64,000 nucleotides of DNA from Amyelois transitella. Taxonomy: Eukaryota > Arthropoda > Insecta > Lepidoptera > Pyralidae. The position numbers and the translations under genes are program-made. Below the pieces are notes generated by a model. That model did not search any database and was not told where the DNA came from. It saw only the letters and a program-made list of their open reading frames with translations. Each line of letters starts with the position of its first letter. Position 1 is the first letter of the stretch. The stretch covers positions 2,820,001 through 2,884,000 of the forward strand of contig NC_083530.1 in assembly GCF_032362555.1 (NCBI RefSeq), in the 5' to 3' direction. Positions 18,233 through 63,511 of this stretch are shown in pieces.

Positions 18233-18238
18233 TTTATT
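18233..18238 (-). terminator. Polyadenylation signal AATAAA of the micro-exon gene
   Basis: TTTATT on the plus strand, i.e. AATAAA on the minus strand, 276 nt after the stop codon. It is the first canonical signal in a sequence with no repeat insertion between it and the last exon. The 3' UTR holds several TTGCAATT-like words. Confidence 0.5.
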
Positions 18239-18513: not shown

Positions 18514-21500
18514 TTACTTTTTATATTCTTGGTGTTGATTATCTTCCTCATCGAGTTGTTGTTGTTGCTGACGCTGTGGAATAAAAAAAAAATATTGTTT
18601 TTTTTTTGTCACAAAGCGGTTGCAAAGGCTATTTGATAAATCCTAATAAAAGTTAGATACTATAAAATTAAATATTTAAAAAATGGTTTATTATACTTTG
18701 TGCAGGTAAAATTCCAAAAGGACAACAATATGTTAATTTTGTTCACCCAGGTGATATCAAATAGATATATGATATGTGACTTAGGTGCACAGGGTTAAAT
18801 TATAAGTCACTGGAAATTTTCTTTAGTAAACTAAAAATTATTTTTGATGTGGGCGTTGAAAAGAAAAAAAAAACCATAGGTATTTTCCGACTGCAATTAG
18901 TATAAACCTTATGGTAAGACTCATATTTTGTTACAAAAAACATTTAATTAAAGATATAAACGTACTCTTCGAATTGTCCTCCTTTTTGTCAAGTTGGTTA
19001 AAAAGGAGTACCTAAGTACAGTTTTTATAATGAATATTCTCCCTAAAAAGCCTTATCGTCTCGGTTAACCCCCCTATGAACATTTATGTAACAGGCAGTC
19101 GCTTTGCACTATAAAAAGGATCACTTCATCTAATTTCCGTGGATATCTCAAGAAGCATTTAGAAGTAGTTGCATTAGTTTAAAGGGTTTATTTCCAAATT
19201 AGTATTTCTGTCACAAGAGGTCACTTGTGCAGCCTTTTGAGTGATGCAGCTTTACTTTGTTAAGTCCACTGTTAACAAGGTCACGGGAGTCAGACGGGAA
19301 TCTCGTAGTGTGACCTGACTTACCCACTCCTGTCAACGTAGCATTGCACGCGCGACGCCGTTTTTATCGCGCGAAAAACTGTAGCTATCCCGTTTCACGT
19401 GAAAATAAAAAGTGAAACAGCTATAGTTTTTCGCGCGATAACCTGACCTTGGACTCCTCACAAGAGACGACACAACCAGGATAACGCTAAGAGACTAACG
19501 CTAACAAACACCATATGAGGTGGTCACGAGTATAGTATGGTTGAGCTTTTACCTTATCCCATTCCTATTAAGTTTTTTTAATAACATTCATAAACGTGAG
19601 CAAAATGCTCTACGCGCGAGTGCCCGTGTAATTTCTAGAGGCTCGGGTGCTGGCGGGTTAATAATTGGAAAGAATATAAAGTGAAAGGTAGAGAAAGGGG
19701 AATGCTTAGATCTGAATAGATTATATCAAATTCAAATTCAAACTTTCATTTGCATAATATGAGTACAACAAGGTATTAAATATCAATATCAAGTTAATAA
19801 ATAAAGTAAGTTATTCTTTAATATCAAGTTGACTAAACCAATATACAAGGAGTGTGTGGATTGGAAGGTCAAGACGAACGTACCTTGATCAAATACTGAC
19901 CGTCCTAGTCAGGTCATGAGTGCCCTAAACCGATAAAGTTACATGAAGAGAGTTATAAATGTAAACGATGCGAAAGAAGCATGTGGGGATCGTGGCAAGT
20001 GGAAATATCTAGTCTCTGTCTACCACTCTGGGAAAGAGGTGTGATTTTATGTAGGTATACATGTATTTTTTTAATCCGTTAATTACTTACCAGCTGGTAA
20101 AGCACCTACAAAAGAAATGCACATTAAAGGTTTTTTGTAAATTAAATTAACCAATAATCAAATTCTTAAGAGATTTTCTTACTAGGTATATTCTCGGGAT
20201 GATGAATTGAATTGAATTGTTGCTAATCGGCGAGGTCGAAAAGTAAATTAACACTTACTCGATTCAGATCAGGGCGTCTTTGATTCAACTGTAATTTGAA
20301 TTGAAACAGAAAATAAGTGTGGAAGCTGACGACGATCGTAATCAAGAGTTATTCCAATATTGACATACATACATATGGTTACGTCTATATCCCTTGCGGG
20401 GTAGACAGAGCCAACAGTCTTGAAAAGACTGAGTGGCCACGTTCAGCTGTCTGGCTTGATGATAGAATTGAGATTCAAATAGTGGCAGGTTGCTAGCCTG
20501 TCACCTAAAAGAAGAATCCCAAGTTTATAAACATATCCCTTAGTCGCCTTTTACGACATCCATGGGAAAGAGATGGAGGATTTCAAGACTGTTGGCTCTG
20601 TCTGCCCCGCAAGGGATATAGACGTGACTATATGTATGTATGTATTCACACAGCATGTTTGTACGATTAAACTGAGTAGATTTAAAAAAAACATAGGTAT
20701 TGTAATAAGCGATTTTTTTTCAGACCACACGGCTTATCAACTAATTTGTTAAAAGGGTAAATTTCTTTTACACTAAATTTTTATTTCACCTTGTAAAGAA
20801 AGAGCTTTGCAAACGAATAATAAAATCGAAAAAAAATGAACTCATTTTCTCTACTGGTAGTAGAGGAAGATAATAATAAAATAATCGAATCATTTTCGTT
20901 AATTATTTTTCAATGAAAGTAAGTAACGGATGATTTTTCTATTTAATAAGACTCACTTGCAAACTTTGGTGGCCGTGCTGTTGGTACTGAAAACAGAATT
21001 ATAAGCTAGCTATTTAAGAATAATCATATTATTTTACAAAATCAAATTCAAATTCAAATTTTTTATTCTATATCGCTTAATAATTGTCGAAAAGTTTCGT
21101 TTCACAACATTGGTTGACGTCAAATAAATTATTTAAAATAAAGTTTACTGCCGCTTCCAAAGCGTTAGTGCAGAAGAAGCGGTAACAAACTGCACTGCAG
21201 CATTCAAATGTTAATTAAGTACGTACAACAATGTTTATTATCTTCACCCGGGCGATATCGCCCACATAGATACCTACACAGATTGAAATGAACCCAACAA
21301 TTACGTAATTTATAAGTTACAGAATATTTTAATTTAATATTGATTTAATTTTATCTGCTTATTTAATTTTATTGAAAATTGTATATGGATCTTTATTGTC
21401 TGAAATAAATGAATTTTATTTATTTATTTTACTTATAGATTAAACAAAAGTATAATTTTAAGATTCCTCCTTTTCCTCTTGGCTATAGGCCCGGTTACAT

Positions 21501-24500
21501 CCTCGCCACTCTGGAGAGGAACCTGGAGTATGTTTTAATTTTAAGATAGACTAGATAAGGTAAAAAAAAATAGAATTATAAGCTCGGTATATAACAATAA
21601 TAAATAATGCGGAAATTAAAATAATATTATAAAAAAGAAAATGCTCATTTAATAGTATAGAATAGATTATTAGCCATTATTAAATATTTTTGGAGTGAAG
21701 AGTTATAATTATTTAGTAATATATTTAATTGTTAAATGTACCTAAGTACTTTTGAAATAATCACCGAGCTTGCATGAAGTGAGTTATGAATGTGGAGGTA
21801 GCGACAAAAGTATGCAGGTATCGTGGCAAGTGGAAGGATGAAGTCTCTGCCTACCCCTCCGGGATAGAGGGGTGATTAGGTAGTATAGGTTCCTTTGGAT
21901 TTGAAACTCACCAGTCTCTGCCTGTCATCATAACGGTTCGTCAACCTGTTGTGGAGCTAAACAGAAAATGTTATTTTTTAAACAGAACATGTTATTTTTT
22001 AAAATGAATACACTTAAAATACACATTCCCATCGTAAAAGGTGACTAAGGGAAAGGCTAATTAACTTAGTATTTTTCTTGCAGGCGATGGGCTAGCAACC
22101 TGTCACTATTTGAATCTCAATTCCATCATTTAGCCATGCAGCTGAACGTGACCTTTCAGTTTTTTCAAGACTGTTGGTTCTGTCTACCACACAAGGATAT
22201 AGACGTGACTATATGTAAGTATGTATGTATATCTTACAACCTTAACAATAAATATATATGAAATATCCGACAAAATGGTTCTTTTAGTAAATTATATAAG
22301 CTTTTCAAATGTTGCTAAGATTAGACGAATAGTTAAATAATGCTTTTCTGTATTGAGTTTTTTAAATTTCCTATTTAAAATAACTAGCTTTTGCGCGAAG
22401 CTTAGCTTCCGTGGGAATAACTAGAAAAAACTATCCTAATGTTTGAAGGTTTTGTATGTCTGTGCCATATATCATTAAAACTGTTCAGTACTTTTAGAAT
22501 GTTATCGTTCACACAAAATAAAAACATTAACTTTTTTCATATATTTGTACTTATAAATATATAATCTGTTTGTAAGTTTAAAAAAAAGTTGAACGTATAG
22601 GTACATTCAAAATATACCTATAGGAAATTGTCATAAATCCATCAGATTACTTACATCTGAATATCTGTGTTGATAATTATCATTTCTGTCATCTAACAGA
22701 GTCTGAAAACAAAAATATGTATTAATGCATGTAGGTAGATACATCGTTAAAAAATATGATTATAAAGCATTTTCCGAGGGTTAAGAAAACTTTATAATGA
22801 TACTAGAGGCCGCCCGCGACTTCGTCCGCATGGAAACCCTATCAATCCCGCGGGAACTCTGGGATAAAAAGTAGCCTATGTGTTATTCTGGGTCTTCAGG
22901 TACCTACATACCAAATTTCATGGTAATCGGTTCAGTAGTTTTTGCGTGAAAGAGTAACAAACATCCATACAAACTTTCGCCTTTATAATAGTAGTAGGAT
23001 GTATAGTTCTACATTTATTCATGTTTTTTAATGCAGACAATGTCCATGATTTAGATTTAAAAGATCTTTATTTGTTTATTGACGTCCGATGAAAATGCTG
23101 CAGTGTAGTTTGTTCCGCCGCTTCTTCGACACATGCGCTTTGGAAGCGGTGGTAGTTATAATTAGATTAAAGTGATGTGACGTCAATAAGTGATACCTTG
23201 TATCCAATTTTGAAAATAAATCTATTCTATTCTACGAGTATTCTATTCTATAGATGGGGTCAAAATGTTCTCCAGTGGAGACCTGGTACCGGAAAGCGGA
23301 GTAGTAGGACGGCTCCTCGCGAGATTCAAATTCAAATTCAAAATTTTTATTCATTACTATAGGATAACAGTATCCTTAATAATTAATATATCGCTTAATA
23401 ATTGTCAAAACGTATGGTTTAACAATATTGGTTGACGTCAAATAAATTACTTAAAACTAAGTTTACTGCCGCTTCCAAGGCGTCAGTGCAGAAGAAGCGG
23501 TAACAAAGTGCACTGCAGCATTTTCTTCAACAACGTCAACTTCACAATATTAATTAAACTTAGAATATAATGTGGACGAGAGAATACATTGTTCAGATTT
23601 GTATATTTATGAGATTTAATATTGAAAATATATATATATATTGAGATGAACTGATGACCTGGTGAAGTTCGCTGGGAAATGTTGGAAGCAGGCCGCCTCC
23701 AATGTAGAAGTTATTGAAAGAGGCCTATGTTCAGTAGTGGACGTAAAATAACTTGCCACGATCCCTGCATACATATAATCACGTCTATATCCCTAGCGCG
23801 GTAGACAGAGCCAACAGTCTTGAAAAGACTGATAGACCACGTTCAGCTATTTGGCTTTAAGATAGAATTGAGATTCAAATAGGGACAGGTTGCTAGCCCA
23901 TCGCCTAAAAGAAGAATACCAAGTTTATAAGCCTACCCCTTAGTCGCCTTTTACGACATCCATGGTAGAGAGATGGAGTGGTCCTTTTCTTTTTCTATTG
24001 GTGCCGGGAACCACACGGCATCCCTGCATACTTACTTCGTTCATTCGATATTCAAAACTCTCTCCATACCAGCTCGGTGGTTTAAAGTATTCTTGACCTG
24101 ACCTTTCGCCGGAACGTTGATAAAGGGGACATAAATTAATTTTGGATGTATGTACCTGGTGATCTAGATTCGATCTATCCTGATATAAAGCCTGTAATTC
24201 TTGCTGCAAATATTGTAACTGCAAAAAAAGAAAAAATGAGCAGAACTATTTCTGTACAATTTTTTGAATTAATGTTTTTTTTTTCACACGAACTTTTAAT
24301 GTTCTATATCAAATTGTCAAGATTTGATAATTGATCCAAAAGTTAAATATCATCGATGTTTCTCTCAATTTTATTTCCTCTTCTAATTCTAATATAATGC
24401 TTATCTTCCATATTTTGTGATATTAATATTTAGGTATATTATATACTAGAGGCCGCCCGCGACTTCGTCCGCATGGAAACCCTATCAATCCCGCGGGAAC

Positions 24501-27500
24501 TCTGGGATAAAAAGTAGCCTATGTGTTATTCTGGGTCTTCAGCTACCTACATACCAAATTTCATGGTAATCGGTTTAGTAGTTTTTGCGTGAAAGAGTAA
24601 CAAACATCCATACAAACTTTCGCCTTTATAATAGTAGTAGGATATTGTGTATTTACTATTGTAAGGTGAAAAGCACCCAATGTTATTCTTTAGGCTCCTA
24701 ACTATACATACATATGTACAATCTTTCATGCAAATAGGTTCAGTGGTTAGGACGTGAAAGACAAACAAACAACTACACATCTACAAGTATATACATATAA
24801 TAAAACAGTAAAAATATTTTGTCTGTACATTTAGTATTTTGAATGAAATGGATAATTTTATTTTAAACTTTTTGTTTGTCTGTCTGTATCTGACTGTATG
24901 ATCAAGATTCAACTCGAAATTTACGCGGACGAAGTCGCGGGCAGCATCTAGTTTATAATAATACTAAGTATGGTTTTACCTCTCTGTCTTGATCCAGTTG
25001 GTGTTGGTAACGTTGTTGCTGAAAAATATACAAACATACATACATATTTATACATTATTATTTGAATCTCAATTCCATCATTGAGCCATACAGCTGAATT
25101 TGTCCTGGTGGCTTTCAGTCTTCAGTCAGTCTTTCCAAGGCTGTTGGCCCTGTCTACCCCGCAAGGGGTATAGACATGATATATATACTGTATGTATTCA
25201 GTCTAATCAATGCATTTTAAATGTAAATAAGTACTTAATGAAGTACGTATTATTTACTATTTATAAGACTTCGCAGCCGTTGGAATTTTGGAAATAGCCT
25301 AAGTAATACACGAAGATGTAGTCTGTTTGTGTGACTTATTTCATCAACATCGATCGAGCGGTTTTGAGTTTATCACTATAAACAAAATAAATATTTTTTT
25401 AATTTTTTTTTGTATAAAAATTAACTTTTAAAACATCCCCACTTACTTGATGGCGGTCAGACCCATAATGTAGCTGCAAAAAAAAAACAAATATTAAATA
25501 ACTAGCTGTTCCCGCGACTTCGTCCGCGTGGAATAGTTATTTTGGGCATCATTGAAGCCCTCAAGGATGAATAATTTTCCCAGATTTTTTTTCACATTCT
25601 CCTTTATTTCTTCGCTCCTTATTATTGCAGCGTGATGTTATATAGCCTAAACCCTTCCTCAAATCAAAGCTATCACTGTACTTAGTATTTAAATTCAGCC
25701 TGATACATTCAGCATTTTTAATGTAAATAAGTACTTAGTATTTCTACTATGAGACTTCGTCCAAGGCTTCGTTACCAGTGGGATTTCCAGTAATAAATGA
25801 AGTCTATGTTAAAAAAACAATAAAAAAATGAATAAAAAAATGTTGCATAATAATATTACCTCATTATCACGATCCAAAAGATGATGTTGTTGGTGTTGCT
25901 AAAAAGATATATAATTTTATTATTTAAACTTAATTACTCAAACAAAAGATATCTATTTCGAAGGAATATGTTGGCAATATTTCCCTTTCCCGTGGGAAAC
26001 AGTAACTTATGTTACTCTAAGGAGGCTATTCTATATCTGTGCCAAGTTTCGCCAAAATCGGTCGCGTAGTTTCTGAGCTTCTCATTACAAACAAAAATAC
26101 AAAAACATAGCATAACATCGTCTAGTCTCTTTCCGTGACTAATTTCATCAAAATCGGTAAAGCAGTTAGGCACGAGAATAAAATCTCTACTTACTTGACG
26201 GCGATCAGAACCATATTGGTGTTGCAGGTGCAGCTGTAAATAAAAAAAAATTATTATAAGGCCCAATCAATTACTTATACTTATTAACTTAACTTATTAG
26301 CAATTCTTGTATATATGTATATAATCAGGATCTCGGAAACGGCTCCAAACGATTTTCATGCAAGTTACAGATTAGTGGCTTTTCGGCTCAAGGAATCGAT
26401 TTATCAAGGTCCTAGGTTCGAGAAAAGCTCGGTACCCAAGATATATAAACATTTTAAAAACCGCGTTTTAAGAAAATATATCAGCGCCATCTCAGGTAGA
26501 CCGAGCAAAGCTCGGTCAACCGGGTTCTTTATAGCCTGTGCCTGCGGCTTCAACTACGTGTAAAATACCTTCTAAGTTCTTCTCAGGGCATGACGAGAAA
26601 CGAACTTTCTTAAACGACGAGAAACGAAATTTATACAGGGTGACATTTAAAACAACTGCATCCTTTTAAACATAGACTATACCCATGCTTCTGAGCCGTT
26701 TGAGCCCATTTTTATTTAAATTAAATGTCATCATTTTCACATTTAAAAAGTCTCAAAAACTACGTCACACGCTTTATTAAAGACCAATAACTACAAAAAG
26801 AAATTAAAACTAAACATGTAAATAAATTATTTTTCTAGTATCAAGATCAAGTAAAGTACAGAGTTGTCGAGATCGCTCAGCTGAATGAATTGTGTCGTTG
26901 ACCTCTGAATCTTACGTGTCGCTTTTCCGCCGGCCGGGGTGATATAACGTATTTATGATCGTGGATTTTGATACTTTTATTTTTATTTTTACTTTCTGAA
27001 ATATGAACCGATATTTTTCTTTTAACGTTTTTAAATATCCTTTAGATGAATACACTTAACAGTTAAATTTATGCAGTTGAATTGAAAGTCACCCTGTATA
27101 ACAATTTTACCTCATTATCCCGATCCAAAAGATGATGTTGTTGGTGTTGCTAAAAAAGATATAAAACAAAATTACTCAAACAAAAGATGTCTATTTCGAA
27201 GAAATATGTTGGCAATATTTCCCTTTCCCGTGGGAAACAGTAACTTATGTTACTCTAAGGAGACTATTCTATATCTGTGCCAAGTTTCGCCAGTGTCGGT
27301 CCCGTAGTTACAGAGTTTCTCGATACAAACAAAATACAAAAACAATATGTTATAAGTATAGATAAATATTGATTAAGTCATAGCATAGCATCATCTTTTA
27401 ATTAAATTTGTATTTACTACGTTGTAATACCTCTTTTGATTTTTTTATATCATAAATTTAAATGCTGAACGTGGTCTTTCAGTGTATAAGTGATAATAAT

Positions 27501-30500: not shown

Positions 30501-33500
30501 TTAAATTTGAACCGTGGACGAATATTGTTTCCATTAAAACATAATGAATAAATGGGAATAATAATGTACTTAAACAATATAATATTCAAATCACTATATT
30601 GCATTTTCTGTGCCTTTAGAAATATTTAATAAAAAAACAATAATAAAAAAAAAATGGCACGAGAATAAATCTCTACTTACTTGATGGCGGTCAGAACCAT
30701 ATTGGTGCTGTAGATGTAGCTGCGAAAATAAAAAAAACAATTATAAGGCCAAATCAATTATACACTTACTAACTTAACGATATTATAAATTTAATATAAT
30801 ATTATAAAGCTGAAGGGTTTGTTTGTTTTAACGCGCTAATCTCAGGAACTACTGGTTGAAATTGAAAAAAAATATCGAGGAAGGCTATAAAACATAACGC
30901 TGCAACTATTAGAAGTAAAGAAATAAAGGAAAAAGTAAAGAAATAAAGGAAACTGCGATGCTTTTGAACTTCTTTGAAATTTATTCGCCAGGGCATGATG
31001 GGTAACAAACTTTTTCTAATTGGACTGGATTTTGTATGTTTATTTTTTAATAATTTAATCGTTTAGTTAGTATTATATCGTTAAGTTAGTATCTCGTAAC
31101 ACCGGTTTCGAACTAACTTCGAGGCTTACTCAATCTGTGTAATCTGTCCCTTATATTATATGTACTTTAAATAATAATTTTACCTCATTCTCCCGGTTCA
31201 AAAGATGATGTTGTTGGTGTTGCTAAATAAATATATTAATAATTAATTATATTAGTTTTAAATTAGATTTTATTTCCTCTTTTTATTTCGATATTTTTTT
31301 TTAATATCATAAATTTATATGCCGTACAGCTAAACGTGGCCTTTCAGTGTAGAAGTGATTAATGTATTTCATGTTTTTGGTAACTGCCAGAACATAGGGT
31401 TTTGTCCTACCTGATAATCTCGGTCTAATTCATGATGAAGCTGTAGAAAAATGAAAAATATATATTTGGTTGGTACTATTCAATATAAAGAAAATAGGAC
31501 AGCTTTTAAAAAAAAAACACTTAATGACGTCAACACAAGTTATAATTAAATCTACTGCCGCTTCCAAAGCGCAAGTGTAGAAGAAGCGGCGGAACAAACT
31601 ACACGGCGTCATTTTCTCCGGATGTCAATTAACAAATACAGGGTGACTTTTAATTCAACTGCATAAATTTAACTGTTAAGTGTACTAAAGGATACTAAAA
31701 ACGTTAAAAGAAAAATATCGGTTCATATTTTAGAAAGTACGAAATAAAATAAAAGTCTCAAAATCCACGATCCTAAATACGTAATATCATCTCGGCCGGC
31801 GGAAAGATCCTGTTAACTTATTTATCCCATTCTATTCCTGAAGGTATTATGTAAATAGTTTTCAGTATTCCTCAGCTCAGCTATTTTTTAACATTTTAAG
31901 CATATTATTATTTTTTTTTAAATCACCTGATGATCGTAGTCCCGATGAAGTTGCTAAAAAATATAAAATATTTTTTTTTATTTTGAACACTTTAAATATT
32001 CACACAAATATAGTCTATATATAACTCAAGTGCTTTTTTCACTGCGATTTAGTTTTCAAAATGTTAATTATCCATTCAAGGAGGTTCTTAAAATGTAAGA
32101 CTTTTCTTTAAAATCTTAATTTTATTAACTGACGACTAATCGTCATCGTGATAATGTTGCTGTTGATTAAAAAGGGTTATGTAAAAAAATCTTATTCTAT
32201 ACATAAAATCAAACTGTAACTGACCAATGTCTGTATATGAAAGATATAAATTATAAAAGTTTGTACTCGTATCACACGATAAAGTGCTCAGTTTTTTATA
32301 GGTGTTATGCTTATTGTAATTCAAAATCTGGTATAGGTAAGAATATTTCTCCCCTCACCCCACTTAAGGGGCAACACTTGCTTTTTTACATTATGGTAAT
32401 TATTTTATTATTTTTATTACCCCAAGCTCTAGTGAAAAAAATTCATTACAATCGATCTACTTTTTCGAATTTGTTATTTACCAACAAAAACCTAAATGTT
32501 TTCTCTTTAATAATATTTTTAATAATTTTATTTATTGAAAATTAATTTGAATTCTGAATAATAAGATTTACGGAAGAAAATAGTTAATAATTTTTTTTCT
32601 ACATTTATTAGACCCTTGATATGAAATTATTATTTGGTGATATGAAAAAAATTACTAACATTTCTATTATGGGGAGTAAAACTGATTGTTACTAACGACT
32701 TGACTATTTAAACTTTACCTATTTGTGAAATCTGTACTTTTTATTTTTGTCACCATGTAAAATTATGAAATTAGGTACACATCTATCGAAAATCATATCT
32801 TTATGTCTGTTTGTCGAATTTTCATTTGCTTATATTTTTACAGCAGTTAGGTTTCTATGAAAAATAAAGAAAAAAAAATTGAAAAAATGTTTCTACACTC
32901 GGTTTATCAGCTGATCGGTCTAAGTATGGGAAAAAATTTTTTTTTTATAAATACTGACCTGCGGCCGGAGCCGTTGCGACTGCTGATACTAGAAAATAAA
33001 ATCAATCAATCAATCATTAATCAGTTTCCTAATTAATATTATAAATGCGAAAGTCAGTTTGTTTGTTACCTCTTTACGGGTTATCTACTGAATTAATCTT
33101 CTTAAAATTATAAATAAATAATTAAATATATATATATAATAAGTTTGTTTATGTTTATGCAAATCTATACTAATATTATAAAGTTGAAGAGTTTGTTTGT
33201 TTGAACGCCCTAATCTCAGGAATTACTGGTTCGAATTGTAAAATTCTTTTTGTGTTGAATAGACCATTTATCGAGGAAGGATTAAGGCTATATAACATCA
33301 CGCTGCAACTATTATGAGCGAAGAAATAATAGAAAATGTGAAAAAAAACGTGGGATATTATTCATCCTTGAGGTCTTCAATGATGCCCAAAATAACTATT
33401 TCACGCGGACGAAGTCGCGGGCAAAGCTAGTATAAAAATAAACAAATACTTACAAGATGTTGTTGTTGTTGTTGTTGATGCTGTTGAAGACTCTGTAATT

Positions 33501-36500
33501 GTTGTTGTAAAATTTATTTATTTATGTGAGTAATAAAGTATGTAAATTATTTATTGTCCAATAAAAAAAAATCACATGTAGCCTCTGCCTACCCCTCCGG
33601 GAAAAAGGCGTGATTTTGTGTATGTGTGTGTGTGTGTGTTGAAATGTTTGAAAGAGGGTTTTCTGAGGTACGTTTATATCTGTTTATGTTACCTGTGTGA
33701 ACCCGGGGCGGGTCGCTGGTAAATCATTACATAGTATAAAACAAAGTCGCTATTATAGTCTGTTTGTCTGTATGCTTAAATCTTTAAAATTACGCAACGG
33801 ATTTTGATGCGGTTTTTTGTAACACGTAGAGTGATTCAAGAGGAAGATTTTTATGTTTAATTTTTTTCGAATTTTGCACCCGTGCGAAGCCGGGGCGGGT
33901 CGCTAGTAAATAAATAAATAAATAACTCACTGGTAGTAATTCAAGCTGCTGGGCTAGCTGGTCATATTGTCGAGACTGAAATTATAAGGCATTTGATCAT
34001 TATATTATTATTACTTCAATATTTTTTTAAATAAGAAAGTAGCTTTTAAACGTGTTTTTTTATAAGTAATTTTACGTCATTACACGTAGGTACTCCTATT
34101 GAAATATTTAGTTTTACATTTATTGCCGTGTGGTTCCCGGCACCAATACAAAAAATAATGGGGCTACTCCATCTCTTTCACATGGATGTCGTAAAAGGCG
34201 ACAAAGGGATACCTTGCAAAGTAGGGATTTTTTTAGGCGATGGCCTTGCAACCTGTCACTATTTGAATCTCAATTCTATCATTAAGCCAAATAGCTGAAC
34301 GTGGCCATTCAGTCTTTTCAAGACTGTTGGCTCTGTCTACCCTGCAAGGGATATATACGTGACCATATGTATGTATGTATATTATGACAAACAATCATGG
34401 GAAAGGCTTAAGAACTTTGGATTATTCTACAGAGCGATCGGCTAGCACTATTTAATTTAATCTCAATTCCATAACAGCTGAACGTGGCCTATAAATCTTT
34501 TAAAGTCTTTTGGCTCTATCTGCCCCGTCAGTGATAAAGATGTATGTATTTGGACATCAGAATAAATATGTGGGCTTATGAACATTTACATTCACAGTGC
34601 TGTGTGGTTCCCAGCACCAATATAAAAAAGAATAGGACCATTCCATCTCATTTCTCGTGGATGTCGTAAGAGGCGACAAAGGGATAGGCGGTTAAAATTG
34701 GGATTCTTATTTTAGGCGATGGGCTAGCAAACTGTCGCTATTTGAATCTCAATTCTATCATTAAGCCAAATAGCTGAACGTCGGCCTGTCAGTCTCTTCA
34801 GGACTGTTGGCCCTGTTGGGATATAGACGTAACTATATGTTTGTATGTATGTATGAACATTTAATAACATATTAATGCTGTGATGTACCGAAGTTCGCGC
34901 AGGTACTATAGTCTATTGCAGCTAATGTCACGTCATGAGTTCTAGGGCAGTCCTCAAGATGGCTTCTACAACCACGTTCACCTCAAGATGAAATTGAGAG
35001 TCAAATATCTAGCGACAGGTTGTTAGCCCATTACCTATATGAAAAATCCCAAGTTTATGAGCCCTTAGTCGCCTTTTACGACAGCCACTAAAAAGATACG
35101 GAGTCGTACTTATTGCAAGTAAATCAATTAATGTAGAGCTCCCGACTTCTACGTCAATATACCTATATTATTATACATACATAAAATCACGCCTCTTTCC
35201 CGGAGGGGTAGGCAGAGACTACCTCTTTCCACTTGCCACGATCTCTGCATATTTCCTTTGCTTCATCCACATTCATAACTCTCTTCATGCAAGCTCGGCG
35301 GTTTCGGGTACTTTATTATTATACCTTACATAAATTGACAATTCCCTTACCCGCAGCGCATGACTTTCCTCATCATGATCCTCATCATCGTCCCGGCGAT
35401 CATCTTGATCATCGTGATCATCTTGTCTGGAAAATAAAGCGTATCTATTTATTCATTTTCTGTCCAACCAAATTATTTCTCCGGCATGACATTCTTAATT
35501 GCCATTCATTATATTTATGTACATATATATATTACGAAATATGTGTTACTCATACATACGTTCATACATATAATCACGTCTATATCCTTGCGGGGTAGAC
35601 AGAGACAAAAGTCTTGAAAAGACTCATTGGCCACGTTCAACTAATTCGCTCAGTGATAGAATTGAGATTCAAATAGTGACAGGTTGCTAGCACATCGCCT
35701 AAAAGAAGAATCCCAAGATATCCCTTAGTCGCGAGTGGTGACAGTGTCTACATAGTATTAATATGCATGGTCTAGCGAAGAAGACAGTAAAAGGATGTAA
35801 GATGAAGAAAATGCTGCAGTGCTTCTTCTACACGGCTTTGAAACGGCTTTGGAAGCGGCAGTAACTTAGTTTTAAGTAATTTATTTGCCGTCAACCGTGT
35901 TGCCGTGTTGAGAAACCAGAAGATATGACAATAATCAAGTTTTGATTATTGTCATATCTTATTGTCATATAATTGATGTTGAAATGCCTCTAAAATGAAT
36001 TAAAAGAAAATGTAAGTAATTTAAAAAAAATATATATAATTATTTTTCATCAAAGTATTGATAGACTATCTACATACACTATCAGACACTATGTTACTTC
36101 AATTGCTGAGTAAAAATGCATACCCTTGCCTTAAATGGTCCTTTTGTCTGCTTTGGTGTTGCTGCTCCCTTTGGTAATTCTGTAACAAAAAAAAAAACAA
36201 ATTTATGGTAAAAAGGTTTTATATCTCGTTGTGCCCCTCTGATTTGGCAAAAATGGGCTGATAATAGTTTTTAGTGGGTATGATGATTCGAGCTCGACCG
36301 CCGCAAAGGAAAGCTTTTCCGCCAGGCTATATATATTATGCCTCTTGGATAGGGCGGCCAGCAACTGGGCTGATGGCTTTTAACAACAAGGTTCAAGACA
36401 CAGGCGCGCTGAGTAGCCAGATAATATTGTTGTGGAATGCCTTGCGATCCCAGGCTCCCCCTTAAAATGGCAAGAAGGGCTCACGGAGGTGTTTTAGTTG

Positions 36501-39500
36501 GTAGATGGATTTGGCGTTTCGAAAAAGGCGAGGTGTACCCAGGGAAGCGCGACGTGAGAGACGATGTTGAGTCGGAGGTTGTATTTATGCTACTCTGAAT
36601 GACTAACTCTTCGCTGCTATTGGCGGAGCGCGTCGCATTCTTTGCTGGGATTGGCTGATGGCGTGTGACGTAAGAGATGTCGCCACAATTACATATGTCA
36701 TGCGAAAATCCCTTGTAGGCATCGAAGCTCAAATACTGATCAGCCTTTTATAAGTAACTAGCTGTGCCCGCGACTTCGTCCGCGTAGAATAGTTATTTTG
36801 GGCATCATTGAAGCTCTCAAGGATGAATAATTTTCCCCGTTTTTTTCACAAATTACATTATTTCTTTGCTCTTTATTAGTTGCAGCGTGATAACGCAAAA
36901 AAAATTTTTTTTCGAACCAGATGTTCCTGAGATTAGCGCGTTCAAACAAATAAACAAACTCTTCAGCTTTATAATATTAGTATAGGGTTAAATAGTTTTA
37001 ATAACAATTTAGTTTTTATTGTGCAAGCTTAGCTTAGATAAGTGAACCACAAGCCTTAGAATGTCAGAGCAACAACAAAATATCAAACAAGATAGTTTTA
37101 AAAGTCTGACTACGTTGTATCAAAATTCTTTTAACCTGGCAGGCGACTCTTATTATCAGTTTTAACATTTAAAACATAAAACGACATAAAATATACACAT
37201 TTATTTTTGTTTTTTATATCAATTTATATCTAGATGGGTTATGTTTCCAACCGTATTTATAACGTAAGCACTTATATTATAAGCTTGTTTCTGTAAAGGT
37301 CCCATAGAAATCGAAATTATGACAAATCCGTTAATTTGATTAGACACGACATCCCAATTCGTTTTTTTACACACAGACAGACAATTACTTACATACGAGT
37401 CCACTAGATCGGCAAGTTTACTAAGCAGTTTCTGAGGGATGTTAAAATTTCCTTTAACTAACACTTTCCACAACATTTCTGACATATTTTTATTTGACAC
37501 AAGCTTTTACCCGCGACTTGGATCGCATTAGATAGTTTTTTGACCAGATTTTATGATTGTTTAATACGACGCCTTTTACGACATCCATAGTAAAGAGATG
37601 GGGGGGGGGGAGTCCTTTTCTTCTTCTTTCTGGGATTCTTCTTTTATGTGATGGGCTAGCAACTTGTCTCTACCTATCTCAATTCTATCATTAAGCCAAA
37701 CAGCTTAACGTGGCCAGTATTTCAAGACTGCTAGTTCTGTCTACCCCGCAAGGGATATAGACGTGATTATATGAATGAATGAATGATTAATACGACGCAC
37801 ATATAATACATTATAATCGGCCCACACGGAAAAGTATTTTTTACCATAGGAATGTGTTGTTTTCTCATGATTAAAAATAGATGTCCCTTTCCAGGTCTAA
37901 AATTTATCTACATACCAAATTTCATCTAAATCAGTTCAATAGTTTCAGACAGACAGACTTGCTTTTACTTTAAAAATATTAGTAAATTTTAATAAAGCAT
38001 GGATTATTTTGACGTTATTAGTATTAAAAAGGACCCTACTTTTTCATAATTAAAAATTTAACATACTAAGAAAGCTTTACTTGGTAAAAAATTTTTTTTA
38101 TTTGTATAAGATATTTTAAAATAATGATTTTCCTATAATACTTTTGGTTTAAAAACACTTCCACCCGAAAAAATTACATCATTATTTTTTATAAACCGTA
38201 GTGTTGTTTTCGTGTGAAAATTAGGAACTGCGAGAAATTAATAATTTCAGATTTTTACTCCTATAAATAATAGTTATGGGTAAAAAAACACTCTAATTAG
38301 CCTTTTTAGTAATTAAAGCAAAAGTTTTATAATGTAAGTAAAGTATAAAACATTTATGTATATGCGCCGTATGGTTCAAAGAAAGAATAGGATCTCTCCA
38401 TCTCTTCCCCTATGGATGTCGTAAAAGGCGATTAAGGGATATGTTTATATACTTGGCATTCTTATTTAAGGCGATGGGTTAGCACTGCCCCTGTCACTAT
38501 TTGAATCTCAATTCTATCATTAAGCCAAACAGCTGAACGTCGCCTATCAGTCTCCCCTTAGGTTCCTCTGCAAAGATTGCGGAGGTCAGATGGGAGTCGC
38601 TTCGTGTAAAAACCTGACTCGCCTAATCCAGGATCCATGGTCAAAGGCAAACCCTGGGCCCTCCAACTTCCAAAGTAATGAGAATGCAACCGGAACTAAA
38701 GCCAGGAGGAAGTAAAAGACTATTCTTTCCAGAAATTCACACGTGAGCGAATCCCTGGCCAGAAATCTGAATGTTTTATTCATAGAATTTATTATATTAT
38801 AGTGCCGTGTGGTTCCCGGCACCAATGCAAAAAAGAATAGGATCACTCCATCTCTTTCCCATGGATGTCGTGGAAGGCGACTGAGGGATACGCTTACAAA
38901 CTTGGGATTCTTTTCTCAGGCGATGGGCTAGCAACCTGTCACTATTTGGATCTCAATAATATCAACAAGCCAAATAGCTGAACGTGGCCGATCAGTCTTT
39001 TCAAGACTGTTGGCTCTGTCTACCCCACAAGGGATATAGACGTGATCATATGTATGTACGTAGAATTTATTGACTAGATTTTTTTAATTAACTATAGTAA
39101 CAGTAACAAGAGTTTTTTTTTTTTGGTAAATTATATACGTTTTAACTTTACCTGTCTTAAATCATCGTTTTCATCTTTGTCGACCACCTGGAATTAATTA
39201 TAAAAATTAGAAAAAATAAGAAAATATGCTTAAAATTACTTAGTTTTTTATTTATTTAAAACTTTATTGCACGAAATGTGGTTTCGTGTGGTTCCCGGCA
39301 CCAATACAAAAAAGAACAGGACCACTCCATCTCTTACCCATGGATGTCGTAAAAGCCGACTAAGGGGTAGGCTTATAAACTTGGGATTCTTTTTTAGGCG
39401 ACAGGCTAGCAACCTGTCTCTATTTGAATCTCAATTCTATCATTAAGCCAAAAAGCTGAACGTGGCCTTTCAGTCTTTTCAAGACTGTAGGCTCTGTCTA

Positions 39501-40491
39501 CCCCGCAAGGGATAAAGACGTGATTATATGTATGTATAGTACAAAGGTGCTACTTATTTCAAAAGAAATCTTGTTAAAAGAATAATTGTTTAATGATTAT
39601 TATTTACTTACGCTCAAATTGACGCTCTGAAGTCGCCTTCGTGTGTCAGGTTGCGGCTGTAACTGCGCCTGCGCCTGCAACTGTGACTGCAACTCTGACT
39701 GTAAGTCTGTCTGCAACTGCGACTGGAAAAAATCAACATACAAACATACATAATTTGTAAATTAAATTTTAGTTTTTAGTTTTCTTTTTTCTTTCTTTTT
39801 ATAAGTAGTTTTAGTACATACATACATACATATCGTCACGTCTATGTCCCTTGCGGGGTAGACAGAGCCAACAGTCTTGTAAATACTGAATGGCCACGTT
39901 CAGCTATTTGGCTTTAAGATAGAATTGAGATTCAAATAGTGACAAGTTGCTAGCCCATTGCCTAAAAAGAATCTCAAGTTTGTAAGTCTATCCCTTGGTC
40001 GCCTTTTACGACATCAATGGGAAAGAGATGGAGTGGTCCTATTCTTTTTTGTATTGGTGCCGTGAACCACACAGCCACGGTTTATAAGTAGTTTTAGTTT
40101 TAATTTGATTTAATTGCAAGCATACATACATCCATACATATAAACAGGTCTGTATTTTTTACCGAGCCGTGTGGCACATCACCAATAGAAAAAATAATAG
40201 GACCACTCCATCTCTTTCCAATGAACGTCGTAAAAGGCGACTAAGGAATAGGCTTAAAAACTTGGGATTCTTCTGCAGGCGATGGACTAGCAACCTGTCA
40301 CTATTAAAATCTCAATTCCATCATTAACCCATTCGGCTAAACGAGACCGCCTTTCAGTCTTTTCAAGACTGTTGGCTATGTCTACCACGTACGGGATAAA
40401 GACGTGATAAATGAATAAAAATATGAAGAAAACTTACCGGCAAGCAGGCCACTGATGCTATGGTCACACAAAGAAGTGCTAAAACCCTCAT
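18514..40491 (-). CDS. Secreted Gln/His-rich protein from a micro-exon gene (28 coding exons, ~408 aa)
   Basis: I do not recognise the family. Exons, 5' to 3' on minus: 40438-40491, 39612-39722, 39152-39187, 36124-36179, 35351-35426, 33931-33975, 33454-33492, 32959-32988, 31927-31953, 31411-31440, 31184-31222, 30681-30719, 30285-30314, 30036-30074, 29167-29205, 28855-28893, 27969-28007, 27111-27149, 26195-26233, 25860-25898, 25447-25473, 24980-25018, 24156-24218, 22655-22702, 21912-21956, 20957-20986, 20259-20288, 18514-18573. Each has AG and GT borders; every length is a multiple of 3 except the pair 56+76, so all introns are phase 0 but one (phase 2). Exon 1 is a signal peptide, MRVLALLCVTIASVACLP. 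The mature part has no cysteine: Q-rich (SQLQTDLQSELQSQ), an acidic block (GQDDHDDQDDRRDDDEDHDE), a poly-Q exon, then repeats, ending DEEDNQHQEYKK. The chain is probably disordered. Two further exons and an alternative last exon are listed separately. Confidence 0.82.
19364..19441. repeat. Family G palindromic element
   Basis: TTATCGCGCGAAAAACTGTA (19364 on) is inverted at 19419-19441 with one mismatch over 23 bp; the stem continues with GTTTCAC and GTGAAAC. Diverged relatives at 5083-5165, 15718-15801/16066-16095 and 56860-56932. It lies in the last intron of the micro-exon gene. 19260-19335 beside it is family C. Confidence 0.65.
19845..20060 (+). repeat. RTE-like 3' end, about 215 bp
   Basis: AGTGTGTGGATTGGAAGGTC (the GVGRPRRTYLDQ region, mutated) through GATCGTGGCAAGTGGAAATA to AAGAGGTGTGATTTTATGTA. 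Inserted in the last intron of the micro-exon gene, antisense to that gene. Confidence 0.7.
20091..20105 (-). CDS. Candidate 15-nt micro-exon (VLYQL)
   Basis: On the minus strand, TTTCTTTTGTAG precedes GTGCTTTACCAGCTG and GTAAGTAATT follows. Both splice sites are near consensus, the length is 5 codons and the phase is 0, which fits between the exons at 20259-20288 and 18514-18573. At this size chance is possible, so it is left out of the 408-aa count. Confidence 0.5.
20370..20640. repeat. Family A reverse copy joined to a forward 3' end
   Basis: 20370-20578 runs in reverse from a CATACATA tail to CATGGGAAAGAGATGGAG. It then switches to forward TTTCAAGACTGTTGGCTCTG at 20580 and ends with a (TATG)n tail at 20640. 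Either one element sits within another, or a hairpin-type rearrangement occurred. Confidence 0.65.
22022..22240 (+). repeat. Family A copy, head missing
   Basis: CCCATCGTAAAAGGTGACTA to GACGTGACTATATGTAAGTA with a short tail. In the intron between the exons at 22655-22702 and 21912-21956. Confidence 0.65.
22803..23000 (+). mobile_element. Family E Helitron-like repeat
   Basis: CTAGAGGCCGCCCGCGACTT to CCTTTATAATAGTAGTAGGA. A near-identical copy is at 24445-24645, an older one at 44024-44215, and a reverse one at 57596-57805. The near identity of the first two suggests recent spread or local duplication. Confidence 0.65.
23240..23760 (+). pseudogene. Jockey-type LINE 3' remnant split by family B
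   Basis: 23250-23325 reads like the integration-end motif W..RPGTGKRS (TGGAGACCTGGTACCGGAAA). 23650-23755 continues with the expected LVKFAGKCWKQAA and a region ending near TGGACG. Between them sits a family B insertion with repeated ATTCAAATTCAAATTCAA at its start (about 23325-23580). Stops and frame changes show it is dead. Confidence 0.5.
23772..24020 (-). mobile_element. Family A, full length, with 10-bp target duplication
   Basis: TCCCTGCATA occurs at 23762-23771 and 24021-24030. The target was a reverse RTE 3' fragment (AACTTGCCACGATCCCTGCA on the left, CATACTTACTTCGTTCATTC on the right, to about 24120), so family A inserted after that RTE copy. Confidence 0.85.
26636..27096. mobile_element. 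Tc1/mariner-like MITE, TA-flanked
   Basis: The ends are CAGGGTGAC and GTCACCCTG flanked by TA. Homology of the inverted ends extends about 30 bp inwards (CAACTGCAT on both arms). Its 3' half matches 5236-5446 and, in reverse, 31635-31812. It cuts a tRNA-derived SINE remnant (CAGGGCATGACGAGAAACGA at 26584) in an A-to-B intron of the micro-exon gene. Confidence 0.55.
27548..27577 (-). pseudogene. Decayed C-type micro-exon
   Basis: The minus strand reads CATCATGAACAAGACCGAGA and ATACCAT followed by a good donor GTAAGAT, and aligns with the C exons at 30285-30314 and 31411-31440. The acceptor is destroyed: the expected AG-CTT is TT-GTT, and no AG lies just upstream. In phase 0, loss of this exon keeps the frame. 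Confidence 0.7.
28462..28710 (-). mobile_element. Family A inside a SINE, 12-bp target duplication
   Basis: TTATCTATTTAT at 28450-28461 and 28711-28722. The host is the tRNA-derived SINE whose body is at 28383-28450 and whose tail continues at 28723-28810. The family A copy starts at CCGGCACCAATACG (slightly 5' short) and ends in a (TATG)n tail. Confidence 0.88.
29555..30020 (+). repeat. Decayed tRNA-derived SINE in an A-to-B intron
   Basis: CAGGGTATGATGGAAAACGA (29559) gives the SINE body and TCGTAACACCAG-type TATCCCGTAACACCAGTTTC (29941) its tail, separated by about 330 bp of other sequence. Orthologous positions in the other module copies: 26583-26611, 28383-28810 and 30990-31160. Confidence 0.6.
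32136..32159 (-). CDS. Candidate alternative terminal exon of the micro-exon gene
   Basis: On minus, CCCTTTTTTAATCAACAG or similar pyrimidine-rich sequence precedes CAACATTATCACGATGAC and GATTAG. In phase 0 this reads QHYHDDD then a stop. AATAAA follows at 32121-32126, 10 nt after the stop. It lies between the exons at 32959-32988 and 31927-31953. If used, it would end the protein before the C-A-B array. It may instead be a dead exon. Confidence 0.4.
   Translation of the reverse strand, partial: QHYHDDD
33167..33431 (+). mobile_element. Family D Helitron-like copy
   Basis: TCTATACTAATATTATAAAG to GCGGGCAAAGCTAG. It ends 23 bp before the poly-Q exon (33454-33492). 33740-33908 downstream is family F (ends GAAGCCGGGGCGGGTCGCTA; reverse copy at 58015-58200). 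Confidence 0.65.
34132..34855 (+). repeat. Family A cluster: 34132-34380 and 34600-34855
   Basis: Two nearly full-length forward copies from GCCGTGTGGTTCCCGGCACC-like heads to TATG tails, with a badly decayed third between them (34385-34550). A partial reverse copy follows at 34930-35100. All lie in the intron between the exons at 35351-35426 and 33931-33975. Confidence 0.7.
35172..35335 (-). repeat. RTE-like 3' end, reverse
   Basis: CATACATAAAATCACGCCTC to AGCTCGGCGGTTTCGGGTAC, almost identical to 45217-45355 of the full-length element, so a recent 5'-truncated insertion. It stops 16 bp short of the acidic exon (35351-35426). Confidence 0.8.
35562..35735 (-). repeat. Family A copy, 5' truncated
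   Basis: CATACATATAATCACGTCTA to CCCAAGATATCCCTTAGTCG. Followed by a short reverse family B at 35800-35890. Confidence 0.65.
35920..35960. repeat. Perfect 19-bp hairpin
   Basis: AAGATATGACAATAATCAA, a 3-nt loop, then its exact complement. It is followed by another ATTGTCATAT. In an intron of the micro-exon gene. Confidence 0.75.
36265..36740. repeat. Unclassified GC-richer island, probable transposon fragment
   Basis: About 480 bp of clearly higher GC than its surroundings, inside the intron upstream of 36124-36179. Plus-strand frames read NNKVQDTGALSSQ and, out of phase, GVLVGRWIWRFEKGEVYPG, which look like decayed coding sequence of some element. A Helitron-like family D copy starts at 36757. 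Confidence 0.35.
37393..37431 (-). CDS. Candidate 39-nt micro-exon (KLLSKLADLVDSY)
   Basis: On minus, TTTTAACATCCCTCAG precedes 39 nt in phase 0 and GTAAGTAATTG follows. Length and phase fit the 3-kb gap between the exons at 39152-39187 and 36124-36179. The composition is leucine-rich and unlike the other exons, so support is weaker. Confidence 0.4.
37565..37785. repeat. Family A, rearranged copy
   Basis: A reverse head piece (CGCCTTTTACGACATCCATA, 37571) joins a forward 3' part (GGGATTCTTCTTTTATGTGA to GACGTGATTATATGAATGAA). A G run lies at 37602-37611. Confidence 0.55.
38366..39062 (+). repeat. Family A copies 38366-38565 and 38803-39062 flanking family C
   Basis: The first copy loses its 3' end where family C begins (38570-38740: GGTTCCTCTGCAAAGATTGC, GGAGTCGCTTCGTGTAAAAA, AGGATCCATGGTCAAAGGCA). 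The second is full length with a GCCGTGTGGTTCCCGGCACC head and a TATG tail, and ends 90 bp before the exon at 39152-39187. Confidence 0.7.
39282..39540 (+). repeat. Family A copy, full length
   Basis: TTTCGTGTGGTTCCCGGCAC to GACGTGATTATATGTATGTA. Between micro-exons 3 and 2. Confidence 0.75.
39816..40080 (-). mobile_element. Family A with 18-bp target duplication
   Basis: TTTATAAGTAGTTTTAGT at 39798-39815 and 40081-40098, identical. It is the longest target duplication seen here and lies in intron 1 of the micro-exon gene. A forward family A follows at 40161-40415, which ends about 20 bp before the donor of exon 1. Confidence 0.85.
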
Positions 40492-40640
40492 TTTTCCAAG
40501 AATTGAACTACGCCATCCACTCCGCACGTATCGTTTTTAAAGCGATTTTTCGTACGCGTATCGAATCGCTTTTAATTTGTCACTAGTCGATTATTAAGTG
40601 TGTAATTTGATACAAAACTCGATTAGGTATACTCATGCGG
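40492..40640 (-). promoter_or_regulatory. Possible core promoter of the micro-exon gene
   Basis: Upstream of the signal-peptide ATG the minus strand has CTTTAAAAACG (40533-40542), a TATA-like word about 45 nt before the ATG, preceded by repeated AAGCGATT and TACGCGTACG words. The region lacks interspersed repeats, unlike the DNA on either side. This is inference only. Confidence 0.25.
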
Positions 40641-63380: not shown

Positions 63381-63511
63381 ACTCAAAGGTTGCCTGGTTG
63401 AGAAGAAAAATCATAGTATGTGCTATCTCTTTCTCTTCCGTGGAGTTTATGAAAGTCTGGAAGGTTTATAATGTTGTGTTTCATTTTAAATCTTTCGTTT
63501 ATTCGAATCCT

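Follow-up and report, generated by a model that had tools for sequence, protein, structure and literature searches.

A likely lepidopteran micro-exon gene for a secreted, glutamine-rich repetitive protein

On the minus strand of a window of moth or butterfly DNA (the whole stretch analysed, 64,000 nt), a chain of micro-exons is, judged from its sequence, almost surely a real gene. Our preferred reading is a single-copy lepidopteran gene whose 29 coding exons would specify a secreted, hydrophilic, probably disordered structural protein of 413 amino acids, rich in Gln, Leu, Asp, His and Arg; we regard this as very probable, a grading that covers the gene and the kind of product and excludes the tissue. 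The likeliest site is the silk (labial) gland, where the product may belong to the glue or coat of the silk, an assignment by analogy that we hold at a little under an even chance. The preliminary description of this DNA had proposed that it holds a lepidopteran micro-exon gene whose secreted product is rich in Gln and His. The exon chain, frame and composition support that proposal, and its lepidopteran origin is supported by chorion-family genes in the same genome, chorion being a lepidopteran family.

The coding chain runs from 40491 to 18514. Exact matching of its exons together with their flanks joins all 29 into a single 413-aa frame, with GT-AG borders throughout and, over 22 kb, no frameshift and no stop until the chain ends. 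The coding sequence measures 1,242 nt across 21,978 bp, in line with the 1.2 kb over 22 kb first estimated. Where a signal-peptide exon and at least 27 further exons had been reported, with AG and GT borders and one continuous frame, we count 28 further exons in the main chain. One additional, stop-terminated candidate of 24 nt lies at 32159-32136. Exons range from 15 to 111 nt, and 23 of the 27 internal ones are no longer than 51 nt; the earlier range of 27-111 nt was right at its upper end but not at its lower, the shortest exon being 15 nt (20105-20091). The product had similarly been put at about 408 aa, close in size, though the joined length is 413 aa. The AATAAA described beyond the stop was located at 18238-18233, 275 nt after it.

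The 28 introns measure 153-2,972 nt, and 27 are in phase 0. The exception joins exon 4 (56 nt), which ends in phase 2, to exon 5 (76 nt), which begins in it; 26 of 27 internal exons start in phase 0 and one in phase 2. The phase-0 design noted earlier thus holds except at this junction, and the suggestion that any set of inner exons could be skipped without a frame change fails there, because exons 4 and 5 must be both retained or both dropped. The introns also hold transposon copies, and the surrounding region is AT-rich and transposon-filled; an Rfam search gave a single match, tRNA-like, at 63508. The features are listed here in the order of the chain; unless stated, exons rest on exact placement and composition, and module units A, B and C on placement and repeat comparison.

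40535..40541, minus: TATA-like TTTAAAA, 50 nt upstream of the ATG, implying a short 5'UTR (consensus match only)
40438..40491, minus: exon 1, 54 nt, MRVLALLCVTIASVACLP, signal-peptide-like (by eye); donor GTAAGT (exact placement)
39612..39722, minus: exon 2, 111 nt, rich in Gln/Leu
39152..39187, minus: exon 3, 36 nt
36124..36179, minus: exon 4, 56 nt, phase-2 donor
35351..35426, minus: exon 5, 76 nt, phase-2 acceptor, rich in Asp/His
33931..33975, minus: exon 6, 45 nt
33454..33492, minus: exon 7, 39 nt, weak pyrimidine tract (6/14)
32959..32988, minus: exon 8, 30 nt
32136..32159, minus: candidate exon 9, 24 nt, QHYHDDD + stop, outside the main chain (placement and composition)
31927..31953, minus: exon 10, 27 nt
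31411..31440, minus: exon 11, 30 nt, unit A
31184..31222, minus: exon 12, 39 nt, unit B
30681..30719, minus: exon 13, 39 nt, unit C
30285..30314, minus: exon 14, 30 nt, unit A
30036..30074, minus: exon 15, 39 nt, unit B
29167..29205, minus: exon 16, 39 nt, unit C
28855..28893, minus: exon 17, 39 nt, unit B
27969..28007, minus: exon 18, 39 nt, unit C
27548..27577, minus: relic exon of unit A, its acceptor AG gone (repeat comparison)
27111..27149, minus: exon 19, 39 nt, unit B
26195..26233, minus: exon 20, 39 nt, unit C
25860..25898, minus: exon 21, 39 nt, unit B
25447..25473, minus: exon 22, 27 nt, unit C in shortened form (exact placement)
24980..25018, minus: exon 23, 39 nt, possibly a divergent B-like unit (placement, composition, pairwise alignment)
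24156..24218, minus: exon 24, 63 nt
22655..22702, minus: exon 25, 48 nt
21912..21956, minus: exon 26, 45 nt
20957..20986, minus: exon 27, 30 nt
20259..20288, minus: exon 28, 30 nt
20091..20105, minus: exon 29, 15 nt, VLYQL (weakest composition fit, top 3.2%)
18514..18573, minus: exon 30, 60 nt, terminal, TAA at its end
18345-18340, minus: ATTAAA, also downstream of the stop (motif match)
18233..18238, minus: AATAAA, 275 nt 3' of the stop (motif match)

As far as sequence controls can tell, the chain is in excess of chance expectation. A stringent filter, devised after the exons were known and recovering 12 of the 27 internal exons exactly, required an open phase-0 stretch of 15-120 nt between a strong acceptor and a strong donor. 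On the minus strand of the gene region it returned 14 candidates that do not overlap: 12 exact exons, exon 19 with a later donor, and one outside the chain. The plus strand of the region gave one candidate, 50 first-order Markov shuffles gave a mean of 1.54 and a maximum of 5, and 58 overlapping 22-kb strand-windows clear of the gene gave 0-8. A composition score trained on the same exons was applied to 1,100 loose candidates from both strands of 224 kb, and its 34 highest values all belong to this gene. With the score trained on exons 11-22, 17 other stretches, held out, each fell in the top 0.04-3.2% of length-matched background, although composition may have contributed to their selection, since these exons were originally chosen by eye.

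The middle of the gene consists of tandem A-B-C blocks of 30-, 39- and 39-nt phase-0 exons, and on sequence comparison it evidently grew by tandem duplication of this block, with exons lost later. The encoded peptide likewise bears an evident purifying pattern. Across 17 pairs of repeated exons, 35 differences are silent and 16 change an amino acid; pN/pS is 0.10 in the proposed frame versus 12.3 and 2.3 in the other two, values that rest on 51 differences in short pieces and on non-independent pairs, and that gene conversion could blur. Variable columns number 1, 2 and 11 at codon positions 1, 2 and 3. Repeated exons are 85-100% identical, compared with 45-96% in the alignable part of their 150-nt flanks. 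In the relic unit-A exon, which has lost its acceptor, 4-5 of 10 codons are changed, more than in the repeated exons. Common descent of all exons was considered and not upheld: the single-copy exons resemble the module in composition. Of 51 pairwise alignment tests, uncorrected, those of A with B and of exon 23 alone gave p about 0.01-0.02, and those of exons 2 and 30 about 0.05.

The predicted protein, with 395 residues beyond exon 1, contains 93 Gln, 52 Asp, 47 His, 20 Tyr and 4 Lys, and is rich overall in Gln, Leu, Asp, His and Arg. Phe and Trp are absent, and both Cys fall within exon 1, leaving none after the signal peptide. A GRAVY of -2.0 and a position on the disordered side of the Uversky boundary suggest that the chain is probably disordered. 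Its computed net charge moves from about -22 at pH 7 to +22 at pH 5. A coiled coil was rejected: Leu periodicity in 500 shuffles gave p 0.03 (period 3.5), 0.03 (3.25) and 0.93 (3.6), and the signal is not firm, because the values of 0.03 were drawn from seven periods and two residue sets.

A Pfam search of the protein found no domain. Protein searches returned nothing at E <= 0.001 among the best 7,986 candidates by shared words, nothing at E <= 10 in a second search of the best 7,986 so chosen, and nothing at E <= 10 among 25 candidates scored in a third. A PDB sequence search gave two matches (E about 0.45), each to cytochrome b-c1 subunit 6, which are taken as chance. Within its own genome, the protein gave 16 matches at E <= 10: nine in the gene itself, six on one stop-holding tract of C27 and one at E 9.97. 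A DNA search with the module (40 of 458 candidates scored) gave 44 matches, eight in the locus and 36 outside it that are restricted to the module's intron. No similar gene lies within about 80 kb on either side, and none was found elsewhere in the genome among the candidates scored; a single-copy gene is the best reading. An open-access literature search listed, among its matches, no paper on micro-exon genes of Lepidoptera.

Schistosome micro-exon genes (MEGs) and aphid bicycle genes had been offered as parallels; the anatomy of the former stands, and the latter are ruled out by gene structure. In the accessible parts of the MEG literature, these 35 genes combine a signal peptide with 10-20 tiny exons, the majority of them multiples of 3 in length and in a few cases one or two out of phase, with introns of 0.1-5 kb and with a hydrophobic or aromatic motif after the signal peptide; exons are mostly 15 nt, and MEG 2.1 is hydrophobic, its studied isoforms being disordered (PMC10526429, PMC10399815). 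The structural traits given there (a signal peptide, long introns, and exons of 6-81 bp that are largely multiples of 3) are found here, with introns of up to 2,972 nt and one exon, at 111 nt, outside the range. The hydrophobic/aromatic motif is missing from a protein that lacks Phe and Trp. Unlike MEGs, this is one gene in another phylum, its exons mostly 27-48 nt and its product very hydrophilic. Aphid bicycle and megacycle genes share with it an insect host, secretion and many micro-exons nearly all of one phase; as far as the excerpted sources describe them, their internal exons start in phase 2, and they form families with CYC motifs or saposin-like folds, although Cys-less bicycle proteins exist (PMC9168663, PMC13041983). 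The present single gene is unlike them in its phase-0 exon starts, and it has no Cys after the signal peptide. The published bicycle gene-structure classifier returned eta -108.3 (p about 9e-48, cut-off 0.72), rising to -23.2 without its phase terms and to +9.5 with all 27 internal exons set to phase 2. Exon phase and the classifier together rule out a bicycle gene. Neural microexons of the SRRM4/RBFOX type have UGC before the acceptor and UGCAUG after the donor. Here 13 of 29 exons have a TGC in the 100 nt before them, where the region's rate predicts about 16, and two have a TGCATG in the 150 nt after them, where about one is expected; that programme was rejected.

Lepidopteran silk mucin 1 and similar proteins, from the same insect order, are a nearer parallel than MEG or bicycle genes in the portions of PMC9684489 available. 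Those portions report, for Yponomeuta cagnagella, a sericin 1 with 28.9% Gln, GRAVY -1.725 and pI 6.46; a mucin 2 with 17.1% Gln, GRAVY -1.271 and 24-25 exons; a mucin 1 with 32 exons, entire exons being duplicated; and GRAVY values of -1.09 to -2.13 for four sericins and two mucins (PMC9684489). They also report small silk-gland peptide 1 (Ssp1), silk-gland specific, with 58 aa, six exons and 20.7% Gln (PMC9684489). Gln is the major residue in our protein, as in sericin 1, mucin 2 and Ssp1; strong hydrophilicity is shared with sericin 1 and the mucins, numerous exons with the mucins, and exon duplication with mucin 1. The silk-coat traits of repetition, great hydrophilicity and one dominant polar residue appear here as tandem exon repeats and 93 Gln among 413 residues. 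The differences are also clear. Exons average about 306 nt in mucin 1 and 118 nt in mucin 2 (length over exon number), against 42 nt here; the Cys motifs of mucin 1 and sericin 1 (CXCYCZ and CXCY) are absent; and Ssp1, whose exons come closest in size, lacks the hydrophilic character (GRAVY -0.04; PMC9684489). In the present protein, Asp, His and Leu accompany Gln. Seroins, antimicrobial lepidopteran silk-gland proteins, are also modular, with isoforms from alternative splicing, but the part of PMC6405961 consulted describes a different module make-up, one module rich in charged residues and one a proline-containing linker; their genes in Y. cagnagella have 3-10 exons (accessible text of PMC9684489).

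Nearly all units are phase-0 exons, so gain or loss of an exon should alter protein length without breaking the protein, and the gene would lengthen or shorten in whole exon units. The product may act through bulk physical chemistry instead of a fold: Gln would give hydration and hydrogen bonding, Leu and Tyr weak contacts, and the charges of His, Asp and Arg could respond to pH, possibly with metal ions. Splicing is probably mostly constitutive. As a guess from donors alone, A and B would be the exons likeliest to be skipped, their donors matching U1 at 7/9 and 6/9 positions versus 8/9 for C.

How far splicing diversifies the product bears on two other readings. Candidate exon 9 could be an alternative terminal exon, giving a 156-aa form beside a 413-aa form that skips it, or a dead cassette. 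Its acceptor is good, it keeps the frame, its composition is in the top 0.06%, and an AATAAA lies at 32126-32121, 9 nt past its stop. Such a motif arises within 40 nt by chance in 10.5% of cases in the gene region, however, and a GTCAGT two bases 3' of the stop fits a dead cassette too. We consider two overlapping products possible but not favoured; they would be compatible with the preferred gene model. It is unlikely that the gene is instead a secreted generator of variation in the manner of MEGs, its phase-0 exons skipped combinatorially to yield, for example, saliva proteins facing plant defence or seminal-fluid proteins. The signal-like first exon, the prevalence of phase 0 and the weaker A and B donors would suit that role, as would the account, in the available part of PMC10526429, of MEG exons mostly in multiples of 3 and isoforms made mainly by central-exon splicing. 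Against it, the copies are purifying and not diversifying in pattern, no gene family appeared among the genomic candidates scored, and, the repeated exons being nearly identical, skipping would alter length more than sequence.

Secreted hydrophilic low-complexity proteins are also found outside the silk gland, and the same gene might well serve a spermatophore or accessory gland, egg coat, cuticle or peritrophic matrix, a reading to which we give real but minority weight. Gln-rich chains might there be cross-linked, or Asp/His-rich stretches might bind calcium or other metals. The abundance of Gln, Tyr, His and Asp and the pH-dependent charge fit; but four Lys in 413 residues leave few in-chain partners for Gln-Lys cross-linking, and the lack of a Pfam domain means no chitin-binding domain. 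A recently dead pseudogene, its exons still bearing the mark of past selection, is very improbable. Certainly pN/pS among duplicates reflects history and not the present, one exon (the unit-A relic) is dead, and exon 9 may be; yet the 29 exons keep every border and their frame over 22 kb. That there is no gene, only chance open stretches or repeat-derived sequence, draws on the intronic transposon copies and on how common simple splice consensus sites are, and it is contradicted by selection that is specific to the frame and by the results from shuffles, adjacent windows and held-out composition; we give it almost no credence.

Returning to the preferred gene model, Lepidoptera may own an overlooked kind of micro-exon gene. 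It would encode a repetitive polymer for secretion and adjust the length and charge pattern of that polymer through gain, loss and perhaps skipping of phase-0 micro-exons; a terminal exon would also switch the product between 156 and 413 aa. We offer this generalization tentatively and consider it rather doubtful. Gene predictors would easily miss such genes, so more may exist in moth genomes. If transcribed, the gene would clearly illustrate, in nature, a protein polymer growing by micro-exon duplication and not by repeats within an exon, with live copies and a dead one next to each other. It would then also extend micro-exon gene design to a silk-making order, show how such genes escape annotation, and make it possible to test directly how a secreted material is tuned by units the size of an exon. 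Vertebrate caseins and other secretory calcium-binding phosphoproteins also place numerous short phase-0 exons behind an exon for the signal peptide; these secreted, Gln-rich and disordered proteins lengthen by duplicating exons. They share the short phase-0 exon design with the gene described here, in a different lineage.

We read the whole minus strand from 41000 to 17800 and placed every exon by exact match with its borders. The main chain of the micro-exon gene has 29 exons: a first, 27 internal and a last. Internal exons span 15-111 nt (mean 41.8, median 39), and 23 of the 27 are no longer than 51 nt; the 28 introns span 153-2,972 nt (median 682.5). The coding sequence thus comes to 1,242 nt over 21,978 bp. 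The landmarks of the gene are as follows.

TTTAAAA, 50 nt upstream of the ATG: TATA-like by consensus match
Exon 1, minus strand, 54 nt: signal-peptide-like start MRVLALLCVTIASVACLP, judged by eye
32159-32136, minus strand: candidate exon 9, outside the main chain; good acceptor, QHYHDDD then a stop
27577-27548, minus strand: dead A exon; acceptor AG lost, donor-like GTAAGA retained
Last exon, minus strand, 60 nt: TAA end at 18514
AATAAA: 275 nt downstream of the stop of the main chain

The preliminary description had proposed at least 28 exons of 27-111 nt with AG and GT borders. The exon number and the borders (GT and AG in 28 of 28 introns) hold; the lower size limit falls to 15 nt. Its single continuous frame is confirmed, running through 413 residues to the TAA with AATAAA beyond. 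It had also supposed that a uniform phase 0 would let any set of inner exons be skipped. Phase 0 is found in 27 of 28 introns, but exons 4 and 5 are joined across a phase-2 intron, so these two can be kept or lost only together.

Exons 11-22 consist of three recurring types, A (30 nt), B (39 nt) and C (39 nt). Along the gene the units run A-B-C, A-B-C, B-C, (dead A)-B-C, B-short C and then exon 23, which is perhaps a B-like unit. The two live A exons differ from each other in the amino acid of one codon, and the dead A exon departs from them in 4 or 5 of its 10. The order of units and the dead A therefore indicate tandem duplication of exon units with loss of some. The remaining exons resemble the units in composition. 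Of 51 shuffling tests, uncorrected, p reached 0.01-0.02 only for A versus B and for exon 23, with exons 2 and 30 at about 0.05; they do not show that all exons descend from one.

Four lines of evidence agree that the micro-exon gene exceeds chance. A strict splice-and-frame filter, which used no protein composition and was written after the exons had been seen, returned 14 candidates on the gene strand, 12 of them exactly exons, and one on the opposite strand. Fifty Markov shuffles gave a mean of 1.54 and a maximum of 5; 58 overlapping 22-kb strand-windows off the gene, drawn from up to 80 kb either side of the window, gave 0-8 each. The filter is harsh, recovering exactly just 12 of the 27 internal exons. 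Among 17 within-type exon pairs, which are non-independent where they share a type, 35 differences are silent and 16 change an amino acid (pN/pS 0.10, versus 12.3 and 2.3 in the other two frames). Variable columns fall 1, 2 and 11 times at codon positions 1, 2 and 3, and repeated exons are 85-100% identical, versus 45-96% in the alignable part of their 150-nt flanks.

Composition points the same way. A score trained on exons 11-22 only was applied to 17 other stretches, namely exons 2-10 (counting candidate exon 9) and exons 23-30; against length-matched open AG..GT stretches, all of them ranked within the top 0.04-3.2%. The combined p is 5e-32 if the stretches are independent, and the exons were first chosen by eye, a choice that composition may have steered. 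With overlapping training and test sets, a second score put its top 34 of 1,100 loose candidates (224 kb) all within the gene (up to 24.9, versus 5.1 for the best outside) and recovered 24 of 27 internal exons. It missed exons 4, 5 and 7, two through phase and one through a weak acceptor.

Candidate exon 9 may end an alternative product of 156 aa, or it may be a dead cassette. Its stop is followed 9 nt later by an AATAAA; the chance of one within 40 nt in this region is 10.5%.

The predicted protein contains 93 Gln, 62 Leu, 52 Asp, 47 His, 42 Arg and 4 Lys, and its two Cys both lie within exon 1. After exon 1 the chain has a GRAVY of -2.0, is placed with disordered chains by the Uversky plot, and passes from a computed charge of +21.8 at pH 5 to -21.7 at pH 7. 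No Pfam domain was found in it, a PDB sequence search returned no relative of note, and a protein-collection search gave none among the candidates scored; as that collection may lack lepidopteran proteins, the missing relatives are weak evidence of novelty.

The preliminary description drew parallels with aphid bicycle genes and schistosome micro-exon genes (MEGs). The former fails: bicycle genes, according to PMC9168663, have internal exons in phase 2 and about 17 exons on average, and the bicycle classifier gave a clear no (eta -108 with the published coefficients, -23 even without phase terms). The latter survives in anatomy. According to PMC10526429 and PMC10399815, MEGs share short exons mostly divisible by three, long introns, a signal peptide, one or two out-of-phase exons in a few cases and, in the isoforms studied, disorder. 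The motif after the signal peptide and the family structure described there are, however, absent here. If its exons are skipped, the micro-exon gene may work like a MEG. Of the nine donor positions that can pair with U1, C exons match 8, A exons 7 and B exons 6, so that skipping should be sought first at A and B. The exons showed no sign of the neural microexon code, and among the matches listed from the open-access PMC literature no paper dealt with lepidopteran micro-exon genes.

We read the product as a secreted hydrophilic structural polymer. Its composition tentatively suggests a silk glue or coat protein as the most likely role. Parallels exist within the same insect order: according to PMC9684489, Yponomeuta cagnagella offers sericin 1 (Gln 28.9%, GRAVY -1.725), mucin 2 (Gln 17.1%, 24-25 exons), mucin 1, in which entire exons are duplicated, and the silk-gland-specific Ssp1, with 58 residues from 6 exons and Gln 20.7%. 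Unlike our product, Ssp1 is not hydrophilic (GRAVY -0.04). The Cys motifs of mucin 1 and sericin 1 are missing, which disfavours membership of either. Lepidopteran silk proteins use alternative splicing, as described for seroins in PMC6405961.

The gene looks single-copy within reach of exon-by-exon searches of the genome (327 Mb in 33 contigs; window at C26:2820001-2884000). A whole-genome protein search (E up to 10) gave 16 matches: 9 in the gene, 6 on one tract of contig C27 with in-frame stops, and 1 at E 9.97. DNA of a module (exons 20-21) had 8 matches in this locus and 36 more elsewhere, which cover its intron alone, a dispersed repeat (40 of 458 candidates scored). A dispersed repeat with at least 136 whole-genome matches has two inverted copies at 39815-40075 (intron 1) and 39285-39537 (intron 2). 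The introns tolerate such insertions and the micro-exons remain intact.

Two neighbours mark the position for orthologue searches.

256-922, continuing upstream in the stretch L028, plus strand: DUF2465 (FAM98) gene
15454-15660, plus strand: Bud13 domain of BUD13, which runs towards the 3' end of the micro-exon gene

Chorion_1, a lepidopteran family, has 16 matches in the genome, all above the cut-off and 15 on contig C28, and none in 14 control genomes, consistent with the earlier assignment to Lepidoptera. A dense cluster at G000:C28:1512795-1577089 holds 14 chorion-family matches on both strands. Within the window, an open 1,036-aa frame at 45228-48338 (minus) encodes a reverse transcriptase domain (RVT_1 E 3.8e-41) together with an endonuclease domain; this LINE-type element coincides with a strong GC-skew dip at 44-48 kb. 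A DDE_Tnp_4 transposase at 52225-53118 (minus) adjoins a BESS-motif protein at 53322-53783 (plus), an arrangement characteristic of a PIF/Harbinger element. In another stretch, at L034:4578-6378 (minus), a tandem repeat with 373 bp spacing contains five related open frames, three of 109 aa. A tRNA-like match at 63508-63578 (plus; Rfam 30.8 bits, gathering 29) is perhaps a tRNA-derived SINE.
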